DNA from: an uncultured Clostridia bacterium
GTDB taxonomy: Bacteria > Bacillota > Clostridia > Christensenellales > Pumilibacteraceae
Direction: 5' to 3'
DNA length: 33,645 bases
Assembly (NCBI GenBank): GCA_947589465.1
Contig: CANQAE010000014.1
Location: forward strand, 1 to 33,645
The translations under genes were made by a program, and so were the position numbers. Shown piece after piece: positions 21,644-32,990 of this stretch. The notes beneath the pieces were generated by a model that was not told where the DNA came from, made no database searches, and was given only the letters and a program-made list of their open reading frames with translations. The stretch's first letter is position 1. Each line of letters begins with the position of its first letter.

Positions 21644-23416
21644 TTATTCGAGAACGGCTTTTATGCGCCTTACTCCTGCGCCCGACGACTGCTCTTTAAT
21701 TATGCGAAATTTGCCGAGATCGCCCGTTCTGCTTGCATGCGGACCGCCGCATATCTCTTTCGAATAGGTACCCATGGTGTACACTTTGACGCGCTCACCG
21801 TACTTGGACGCAAACAAACCTATTGCGCCCTGTTTTCGCGCCTCATCCACCGTCATTTCTTCGCAAACTACGGGTACGTCCGCCGCGATCGCCTCGTTGA
21901 CTTTTGCTTCCACGGCGGCGATCTCCTCCTCAGTCAAAGCCCTTCCGAACGTGAAGTCGAAACGCAACCTTTCCTCGGTAATGTTGCTTCCCTTTTGATT
22001 TACGTCGGGGTCGTTGAGAACGCGTTTGAGCGCGGTGTGCAAAAGATGAGTGGCGGTATGCAACTTGGTGATGGTTTCGGTATGGTCGGCAAGTCCGCCC
22101 TTAAATTTCTGTTCCGCGCCCGTATGACTCTTTTGCTGATGCTCGCGATAAGCCTCATGGAATCCGTCCGTATCTACTTTGAGTCCTTTTTCACGCGCCA
22201 ATTCGACTGTCATTTCGACGGGGAATCCGTACGTTTCGTACAGCCTGAACGCCGCTTTGCCGCTTATCGTATCGCCCTTTTGATAGAACACGAGTTTTTC
22301 GAATTCCTTTATTCCCGTAGCAAGCGTCTTTTCGAATCGTTCTTCCTCGGCGCTTATTTCGTCGAGAATTTTTGTCGAAGCCGCGACGAGTTCGGGATAG
22401 ACGTCCTTATATATGTCGATAACCGTTTTGGCGATTTCGACTAGCGCGCCGCTCGCGAGTTCGAGTTGTCTGCCGAACCTTATCGCACGCCTTAAAAGCC
22501 TTCGCAAAATATACCCCTGATCGACGTTCGAGCAAGTAACGCCGCGTTCGTCGCCTATGATGAACACAGATGTGCGGATATGGTCTGCAATTATTCGCTC
22601 TGCCTTTATGTCGGAAACGGCGGCAAGCGACCGTATCTTTGCCATGATCGGCACGAAAATATCTGTGTCATAGACACTCTTTTTGCCCTGCAAAATACAC
22701 AAAGTGCGTTCCAGCCCCATGCCCGTATCGACGTTTTTCTGTTTGAGCGGCTCGAACTTTCCGTCCGCGGTCTTGTTGTATTGCATGAACACGTCATTCC
22801 ATATTTCGAGATATTTGCCGCAGTCGCAGTCCGGTCCGCAACTATCCGAACAGTCTTTCACGTCCGAGATGAAAAACATTTCGCTGTCAGGTCCGCAAGG
22901 TCCCGTTATTCCCGCCGGTCCCCACCAATTGTTGGATTTCGGCAGATAGAAGATATGTTCTTTTTTTATGCCGCATTCCATCCAAAGTTTTGCGCTTTCC
23001 TCGTCGCGCGGACAATCTTCGTCGCCCGCAAAGACGGTCACCGCAAGCCTATCGGGATCTATGTCGAGATATTCCGGGCTCGTCAAAAATTCATAACTCC
23101 ATGCTATCTGCTCCTTCTTGAAGTAATCGCCGAGCGACCAATTGCCGAGCATTTCGAAAAACGTGCAATGGCTCGCGTCGCCCACCTCGTCTATGTCGCC
23201 CGTGCGAACGCATTTCTGCACATCGGCAAGTCGCGTGCCGCCCGGATGCTTCGCGCCGAGCAAATAAGGAACGAGCGGATGCATTCCCGCCGTGGTGAAA
23301 AGCACCGTCGGATCGTTTTCGGGAATGAGCGACGCCGAACTTATCACGGTGTGACCCTTTTCGGAGTAAAATTTAGTCCACATATTTCTGAGTGTATAAC
23401 TGTCTATGTTCTTCAT
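21644..23416 (-). CDS. alaS: Alanyl-tRNA synthetase, short form without C-Ala domain
   Basis: 590 residues, against about 870 for the usual bacterial enzyme. The class II catalytic core (SASLIPENDPTVLFTTAGM, 27-45), the tRNA-recognition helices and the editing domain are present. Editing zinc ligands H453 and H457 (HTATHLLH), C556 and H560 (CGGPH) are in place, so mischarged Ser/Gly-tRNA could still be cleared. The protein ends soon after VRRIKAVLE with a normal stop; the C-terminal oligomerisation/tRNA-elbow domain (DHHA1-like C-Ala) is absent rather than frameshifted, since no remnant is seen downstream. The ATG has GAGGT upstream and lies 7 bp after glnS. Last gene of the metK operon. It charges tRNA-Ala in the cytoplasm. 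Confidence 0.93.
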   Translation of the reverse strand: MKNIDSYTLRNMWTKFYSEKGHTVISSASLIPENDPTVLFTTAGMHPLVPYLLGAKHPGGTRLADVQKCVRTGDIDEVGDASHCTFFEMLGNWSLGDYFKKEQIAWSYEFLTSPEYLDIDPDRLAVTVFAGDEDCPRDEESAKLWMECGIKKEHIFYLPKSNNWWGPAGITGPCGPDSEMFFISDVKDCSDSCGPDCDCGKYLEIWNDVFMQYNKTADGKFEPLKQKNVDTGMGLERTLCILQGKKSVYDTDIFVPIMAKIRSLAAVSDIKAERIIADHIRTSVFIIGDERGVTCSNVDQGYILRRLLRRAIRFGRQLELASGALVEIAKTVIDIYKDVYPELVAASTKILDEISAEEERFEKTLATGIKEFEKLVFYQKGDTISGKAAFRLYETYGFPVEMTVELAREKGLKVDTDGFHEAYREHQQKSHTGAEQKFKGGLADHTETITKLHTATHLLHTALKRVLNDPDVNQKGSNITEERLRFDFTFGRALTEEEIAAVEAKVNEAIAADVPVVCEEMTVDEARKQGAIGLFASKYGERVKVYTMGTYSKEICGGPHASRTGDLGKFRIIKEQSSGAGVRRIKAVLE

Positions 23417-31433: not shown

Positions 31434-32813
31434 CTATTCCAACTGTTGCATTTTGCCGAGTTTTTTCCAAATCCAAATCATGATCGGGACAGTCACGACG
31501 AAAGCGAACGCATCGGCAATGGGCGCAGCCCAAGCGACGCCCATTACTCCGAGCCCTATGGGAACAATGAGTGCGCAAACAATTACCGAAATGTCGCGCA
31601 GGAACGAAAGCGGCGCGGCGATTTTTGCAAGACCGATGGACTGCATAAAAATCGCGCAAACCTTTTGCAGACACGTAAGCACAATAAGCATAAGATAGAT
31701 ACGCAAGCAAGGTACGGCGAATTCCATATACAGTTGCGATTCCTCTCCGCCGCCCGCTCCGAACATTTCGATAAATATCCTCGGTATCGCCTCGAAAAAT
31801 GCGGTAAACAGCAGGCATATTCCCGCCGTCCAAAGCAAAATGAGTTTCAAAAGTTGTCGAACCCTGTCATACTTTTTAGCACCGTAATTGTACCCGACGA
31901 TAGGTTGCGCGCCCGCCGCGATCCCTATCGCGACGTTGAGGACGATTTGAAAAAGTTTCATTATTACAACAAACGCCGCGAGCGGAATATCCGCCCCGAA
32001 CTTGCTTTTAAGTCCGTAGTTGACGAACAACACATTGTTTACTACGGTTGTCGCGACGATACAAAGTTGAGTAAAAAGGCTCGACAGACCAAGCGCCATT
32101 ATCCTCGTAAGAATCTTGAAATCGGGCACAAAACTCCCCAATTTAAGTTTGAATGTCTTACTGCGGAACAAATATGCCGCGCAGATAACAAAACTCACAA
32201 ATTGTCCTATTATCGTCGCCCATGCCGCGCCCTGTATGCCGAGATCGAGCGCGTAAATGGCGATCGGATCTCCTATGATGTTCAAAACGGCACCCGTCAC
32301 CATTGCGAGCATCGCATATCCGGGCGCACCGTCCGCGCGAATAATTGCCGCAAGACAATTTTGCACGAGAGCGATCGGCATCATAGCGTATATAATTATT
32401 CCGTAATCGTACGCAAGCGAAACGTTCGCTTCCGTACCGCCAAGTAGCATTAACAGGTCAGCACCCCAAAGATACGCCACCAAAATGACGACGCAACCCG
32501 AAATAAAAGACGCCGCTATGGCATTGCCGACGCCCTTATGGATCTTGTCGTTTTTACCTTCTCCCAAAGAAACCGAAAGCCACGCCGCCGCTCCGTCGCC
32601 GAAAAAGAGCGACAAGCCCCAACCTACTACCGTTATGGGAAAAATTACACCCGTTGCCGCATTGCCGAGAAAACCGACTTTACTGTTTCCCACGAAAATC
32701 TGGTCAACTATATTGTACAGGCAAGATATGATTAGCGACAATATGCACGGAATTGCAAATTTCGCAAGGAGTTTGCCTATTTTTTCTTTTCCCAAATATT
32801 CGTTGTTTTCCAT
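31434..32813 (-). CDS. MATE-family multidrug/metabolite exporter
   Basis: 459 residues, twelve membrane helices in two MatE bundles: NAATGVIFPITVVGWGLSLF and GAAAWLSVSLG in the first half, GAQPIVGYNYGA around the middle, LPIADA-type C-terminal helices near the end (MGVAWAAPIADAFAF). MATE proteins extrude cationic drugs or metabolites using Na+ or H+ gradients; the substrate cannot be read here. The start at 32813 has TGGAGG 5 nt upstream (an in-frame extension would run into the attenuator and is rejected). Expression appears controlled by a 140-nt leader with alternative hairpins ending right at the ribosome site, suggesting induction by a translation-affecting or similar signal. Confidence 0.9.
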   Translation of the reverse strand: MENNEYLGKEKIGKLLAKFAIPCILSLIISCLYNIVDQIFVGNSKVGFLGNAATGVIFPITVVGWGLSLFFGDGAAAWLSVSLGEGKNDKIHKGVGNAIAASFISGCVVILVAYLWGADLLMLLGGTEANVSLAYDYGIIIYAMMPIALVQNCLAAIIRADGAPGYAMLAMVTGAVLNIIGDPIAIYALDLGIQGAAWATIIGQFVSFVICAAYLFRSKTFKLKLGSFVPDFKILTRIMALGLSSLFTQLCIVATTVVNNVLFVNYGLKSKFGADIPLAAFVVIMKLFQIVLNVAIGIAAGAQPIVGYNYGAKKYDRVRQLLKLILLWTAGICLLFTAFFEAIPRIFIEMFGAGGGEESQLYMEFAVPCLRIYLMLIVLTCLQKVCAIFMQSIGLAKIAAPLSFLRDISVIVCALIVPIGLGVMGVAWAAPIADAFAFVVTVPIMIWIWKKLGKMQQLE

Positions 32814-32821
32814 ATGTACCT

Positions 32822-32938
32822 CCAAAACAAAACGACACACAGATAACCGTATGTCGCTTTAAGTCAATAATAAACGACACTTGTATTCGCTTGCGTACCG
32901 TAATCAGATTTACGCGCATATGCGCCACATGTGTCGTT
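32822..32938 (-). promoter_or_regulatory. Putative transcription attenuator of the MATE gene
   Basis: Four segments, read on the minus strand: 1 = AACGACAC (32931-32938), 2 = GTGTCGTTT (32872-32880), 3 = AAAGCGACATAC (32849-32860), 4 = GTGTGTCGTTTT (32829-32840). 1:2 pairs over 8 bp, 2:3 over 9 bp with wobbles, 3:4 over 12 bp with two wobbles and loop GGTTATCT, followed by the U-rich GTTTTG just before the ribosome site. 1:2 plus 3:4 would terminate; 2:3 would prevent 3:4 and allow read-through. This is the arrangement of amino-acid and drug-inducible attenuators. Confidence 0.65.
32910..32930 (-). CDS. Possible leader peptide MWRICA
   Basis: ATG at 32930, six codons, stop TAA at 32910-32912, with AGAGG 11 nt upstream (32942-32946). 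It overlaps the sequence following segment 1, so a stalled ribosome would mask segment 1 and favour the antiterminator 2:3. An overlapping frame starting at the ATG at 32919 (MRVNLITVRKR...) is an alternative leader. Neither is proven. Confidence 0.3.
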   Translation of the reverse strand: MWRICA

Positions 32939-32961
32939 AAGCCTCTATTAAGTTCGATTTA

Positions 32962-32990
32962 ATTATATCAAATCCCCCGCGAAAAGTCAA
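32962..32990 (-). promoter_or_regulatory. Promoter of the MATE gene
   Basis: Minus strand: TTGACT (32985-32990), 17-bp spacer, TATAAT (32962-32967). The predicted start near 32955 gives a leader of about 140 nt. Confidence 0.8.

Follow-up and report, generated by a model that had tools for sequence, protein, structure and literature searches.

The window, i.e., the whole stretch of 33,645 nucleotides analysed here, carries on its minus strand an element that extends from 32955 to approximately 32825 and lies ahead of a gene for a MATE family efflux transporter (31434–32813, minus strand, start codon ATG at 32813–32811). The encoded protein of 459 amino acids matches Pfam MatE (7.7e-30) and scores above the cut-off of TIGR00797, with BH2163 as its nearest solved relative. 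The ribosome binding site of the gene, GGAGG, is located at 32819–32823, and a promoter of the form TTGACT-17-TATAAT with an extended -10 TG (11 of 12 consensus matches) occupies 32990–32962, all on the minus strand. Promoter-like boxes were also seen by eye ahead of the motif in relatives. Elsewhere on the same strand of the window, the open reading frame for alanyl-tRNA synthetase (21644–23416) comprises only 590 amino acids and stops shortly after its CGGPHASRTGDLG motif, so that the usual C-terminal domain of this enzyme seems to be absent.

Four segments with alternative pairing partners make up the element. Segment 1 (ACGACACATGTGGC, 32924–32937) constitutes the 5' strand of a conserved putative aptamer as well as the 5' arm of a competing hairpin 1:2, and its letters ACGACACAnGU are near-invariant among 53 type-1 members. 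Segment 2 (AAGTGTCGTT, 32873–32882) can pair either with segment 1 or, as an antiterminator, with segment 3, as indicated by duplex energies, constrained folds and the layout in 20 MATE-linked members. Segment 3 (AAAGCGACATACGG, 32847–32860), a mimic of segment 1, provides the 5' arm of a terminator 3:4 according to duplex energies, while sequence and folding identify segment 4 (CTGTGTGTCGTTTT, 32829–32842) as its 3' arm, after which a U-rich tract extends to 32825. The original prediction of an attenuator ahead of a MATE exporter gene, built from four segments whose pairings exclude one another, is borne out in this respect: both alternatives were folded, and all three pairings are confirmed by duplex energies of -18.3 (1:2), -11.4 (2:3) and -19.4 kcal/mol (3:4) for the minus strand of the window. 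The leader folds at -45.0, compared with -31.7 ± 3.2 for shuffled sequences (z -4.2), and none of 200 shuffles was as stable. The promoter at 32990–32962 places the transcription start upstream of segment 1, and the concern that transcription might begin downstream of this segment thus does not apply. In the minimum free-energy fold of the window leader, 1:2 and 3:4 are present together, so that 2:3 can win only before segment 4 is transcribed. When the aptamer was imposed in constrained folds of the window, 2:3 formed in a transcript ending at segment 3, and 3:4 prevailed over 2:3 at equilibrium once segment 4 was present; because of this higher stability of 3:4 we assume that the switch must be kinetic.

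The conserved part of the element is an irregular hairpin of about 40 nt, ACGACACAnGUn-[hairpin]-rUAAAUCUGAUyACGG, and the same block, ACGACACAUGUGGC-[hairpin]-GCGUAAAUCUGAUUACGGUAC, accompanies MATE orthologues of 72–85% identity from the genus and family of the window (L003, L004, L005, L006). A pattern search detected the motif in 19 of 396 genomes of the order, compared with a single genome for the reversed-pattern control, while most of the matches listed for a looser pattern search of contigs were chance matches. With covariance models, the motif was found in 27 of 391 genomes of the class and, with a second model, in 8 of 398 genomes of the phylum, numbers that are expected to include some chance matches since E-values were calculated per genome with a limit of 0.01; nearly all of these class- and phylum-level matches precede one of three gene families. 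Among 60 copies, 57 lie directly before genes for membrane proteins, namely MATE transporters (27), DUF2798-like proteins (26) and DHA2-type MFS exporters (4), whereas two of the remaining three are situated at contig ends and one is unclassified. The term DUF2798-like is used because the Pfam matches of these proteins extend from a clear one (1.3e-13) down to scores under the cut-off. The three families are unrelated, and the element thus holds the steady position before functionally related, non-homologous genes that is characteristic of riboswitches. A second form of the motif, type 2, reads CGUGUGGC-[hairpin]-GCGUAAAUCCrG and has its own outer helix and U-run (L011, 1326–1460; L161, approximately 1490–1640; L152; L199; L245); it occurs in tandem in L011 and L161 and precedes MATE genes in L011, L161 and L199.

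At the center of the conserved part is the inner hairpin P2, GCGC-AUAU-GCGC in the window (32914–32925, minus strand), for which 98% of the cells in the alignment are paired and 30 changes affect both sides, compared with 6.6 expected and a frequency of 0 in 500 shuffles; the alignment was fitted to the P2 stem, yet the invariant flanks allow little freedom. In a larger set, all four P2 pairs exhibit changes on both sides. Column analysis suggested further pairs nested around P2, i.e., C6-G70, G7-C69, C11-G64, A12-U63, G16-U61 and U17-A60, of which A12-U63 is replaced by G-C in five type-2 sequences and U17-A60 by C-G in L233. Over the whole model, 97% of cells are paired, and changes on both sides occur in 8 of 10 pairs (2.7 expected) and in 47 cells (9.1 expected; 0 of 500 shuffles), with the outer aptamer pairs contributing one to five compensatory sequences each and the support for A12-U63 being due entirely to the five diverged sequences of type 2. 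The compensatory changes that the original prediction had proposed to look for are therefore present, strong in P2 and weaker in the outer pairs, and the 5' leader combines a conserved aptamer sequence with a covarying structure as is typical of riboswitches. The helices are separated by near-invariant internal loops, ACA / AUUA and n / rUAA, which probably form a ligand pocket. Part of these letters belong to the conserved 3' strand GUAAAUCUGAUUACGG (32898–32913, minus strand), within which UAAAUCUGAUnACGG is conserved in 52–53 of 53 members with the exception of one Y/gap column and for which compensation in the outer pairs is weaker. A GUAA/UUAC hairpin within the core, taken from the minimum free-energy fold, was rejected as it is not kept in L005, L045 and L191, and the nested irregular hairpin fits the core better. 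As one idea, a guanidine-II-like ACGR-ACGR contact could be envisaged, for which L192 and L187 are the only informative sequences.

The original prediction had further invoked a leader peptide, MWRICA, encoded by ATG TGG CGC ATA TGC GCG TAA (32910–32930, minus strand), on which a ribosome stalled by an antibiotic or by amino-acid shortage would induce the exporter gene. The letters exist in the window at 32930–32910, AUG and UAA flank the hairpin on either side, an AGAGG lies 11 nt upstream of the frame, and a Trp codon, TGG, is present in many members. Among 52 relatives, however, the position of the start codon is occupied by AUG in 42 cases, by AAG in seven and by ACG in three, i.e., the start codon is lost in 10 of 52, and the distances from this position to the conserved UAA are spread over all three frames (24/17/11). 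Moreover, L176, L192 and L231 read AUG-UAG, loop lengths vary by single bases, and a ribosome site is absent by eye from most class-level members. Leader-peptide attenuators of the trp and erm type are thus matched in the alternative pairings 1:2, 2:3 and 3:4 but not in a conserved start codon and reading frame, and we rejected the peptide, considering ribosome-mediated attenuation highly improbable. Since the pairs of the inner stem change together on both sides regardless of codons, the conserved letters AUGUGGC...GCGUAA are explained by RNA structure. The sensor is most likely the RNA itself in the form of an aptamer, not a stalled ribosome.

Changes at the former start codon position also bear on the relation between aptamer and terminator. 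In 41 of the 52 copies tested, the 5' strand of the aptamer is complementary to a segment further downstream whose end lies at a U-run (shuffle p<=0.01); shuffles reach this terminator-pairing score in 0.9%. As one strand is shared by both structures, aptamer and terminator are mutually exclusive, an arrangement known from riboswitch expression platforms and also reproduced by the constrained folds. Where AUG is replaced by AAG or ACG, the terminator strand is changed to match (L153, L191, L195, L196, L232), as exemplified by GACACAAGTAG with CTGCTTGTGTT in L195 and ACGACACACGTA with TACGTGTGTCGT in L232. In most relatives a U-run forms the end of hairpin 1:2, which is itself a terminator, and the MATE group possesses 3:4 in addition; in the window, this first U-run (UUUAUUAUU) is weak. 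The four-segment layout with a second terminator, in which segment 3 imitates segment 1, is shared by at least 20 MATE-linked members, at 2:3 energies from -7.6 to -15.0 kcal/mol. Each hairpin with its U-run would terminate on its own, and plain constitutive terminators or chance inverted repeats devoid of any sensor could be considered on these grounds. They are hardly credible as an explanation, since a plain terminator cannot account for loop letters that are invariant throughout the class or for the AUG/AAG/ACG compensation.

We therefore consider it likely that the element is an orphan riboswitch of a class absent from Rfam, operating as a terminator-embedded ON switch. Transcription would start about 18 nt before segment 1. 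In the presence of ligand, the nascent RNA would fold into a compact irregular hairpin consisting of segment 1, P2 and GUAAAUCUGAUUACGG, with the invariant internal loops as the pocket. As the ligand would hold segment 1 within the aptamer, segment 2 would remain free and capture the emerging segment 3, the terminator would fail and the exporter would be made. Without ligand, segment 2 would take segment 1, the 3:4 terminator would form and RNA polymerase would stop before the MATE gene. In the MATE group, 3:4 would thus act as a second gate controlled through 2:3 antitermination. From the sequence data we infer that a small molecule and not a protein is bound, that the ligand turns the switch ON and that all three exporter types accept this ligand as a toxic substrate. 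Protein-mediated antitermination, i.e., an RNA-binding regulator that recognizes the conserved hairpin and blocks the terminator, appears unlikely to us. An irregular hairpin with invariant internal loops could equally well be a protein site, and an overlap with the terminator is typically seen in RAT-type antiterminators as well. On the other hand, the motif is located, in numerous genera, ahead of genes from three unrelated families, and no regulator gene was noted in the loci inspected in an unsystematic check of neighbours. In addition, the tandem copies in L011 and L161, each equipped with its own terminator, are more usual for riboswitches, for which such tandem arrangements are known (PMC9481103).

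When the window and its relatives were compared with Rfam 15, no cis-regulatory family reached its gathering score and matches at E<10 were at chance level only, in agreement with the original statement that no known MATE-linked riboswitch is recognizable. In seven loci of the class, the same scan detected guanidine-I upstream of SugE, which serves as a positive control and demonstrates that the approach works. Guanidine-IV and its variant Gd4v are serious candidates for membership because both control MATE genes, and they share with the element a terminator-embedded ON logic (PMC7736828; PMC9788692; PMC12186494). Guanidine-IV (GGAM-1, mepA motif) resembles the element in its position upstream of MATE exporters and in its mode of switching (PMC7736828; PMC12186494), but its main gene is sugE and its published structure consists of two hairpins joined by a loop pseudoknot, the 3' hairpin being the terminator, without a conserved ACG trimer. 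The element, in contrast, is best described by a single nested hairpin with ACG conserved in both strands, and the distance of approximately 18 nt from the predicted start to the motif leaves no space for a 5' partner hairpin. Gd4v is an orphan that is enriched in the gut and has MATE among its genes, as does the element, but it retains guanidine-IV architecture and its main gene encodes the transaminase PRK07324 (PMC9788692). None of the 60 copies was found before sugE or the Gd4v transaminase, and SugE leaders of the class and of a Paraclostridium plasmid, when examined for guanidine-IV, contained either guanidine-I or nothing recognizable. Membership in guanidine-IV or Gd4v is accordingly very unlikely, with a small probability remaining as the comparison was made with published descriptions of architecture and associated genes.

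In its mechanism, the proposed riboswitch resembles the HMP-PP (thiS) riboswitch, where aptamer letters reside within the terminator hairpin and ligand binding blocks the terminator in an ON switch; in this comparison, made by description, HMP-PP (thiS) differs in being associated with thiamin genes (PMC8632094). The MATE-group element shares the 1:2, 2:3 and 3:4 alternatives with trp-type four-segment attenuators, in which a ribosome on a leader peptide controls segment 1, while here the aptamer would take over the role of the ribosome. What is new would be a candidate class, absent from Rfam 15 as the catalogue consulted, within a known kind (transcriptional ON riboswitches), to which the MATE branch would add double gating of an unusual type. 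On balance we favor a broader reading according to which a toxic small molecule is sensed in gut-type Clostridia by a novel class of riboswitches, which comprises two or more sequence types and activates three unrelated export systems. The DUF2798-like proteins would then constitute a new family serving the export of, or resistance to, this molecule, and the MATE branch would be doubly gated through a segment 3 that mimics the aptamer 5' strand. If this is true, DUF2798-like membrane proteins would receive their first hint of a function, and gut Clostridia would be shown to sense, by means of RNA, a compound which they expel. The toxicity of fluoride and of guanidine was likewise revealed through riboswitches that were formerly orphans. 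The compact aptamer, the clear terminators and the three exporter families make ligand screens with a simple reporter practical. A literature search of the main text of papers yielded nothing relevant on DUF2798 or on orphan MATE or MFS motifs.

Several observations concern single loci and neighboring gene groups. In L173 the motif is intact (1501–1551) and only a remnant of a DUF2798-like gene is found downstream. The surroundings of the motif in L042 (JAMPEJ010000005.1, titled Corallococcus sp. MAG) are identical to L164, a genome of the order to which the window belongs, and the L042 contig is probably a mis-binned clostridial contig. MATE orthologues of 43–44% identity in L009 and L010, and partly in L008, are devoid of the motif and have in common another leader block, GCAGUUUUCAGGUAGCUUU, close to which a terminator-like hairpin is situated. 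Distant DUF2798 homologues from other Clostridia (L246, L247, L249, L250, L251 and also L252–L254) are preceded by a conserved leader of another kind, UUGGAAACGnACAC-[hairpin]-GAUAACGAACAACAC, for which Rfam contains no match. Its covarying hairpin is flanked by ACG on each side, and this leader may be a distant relative of the motif.
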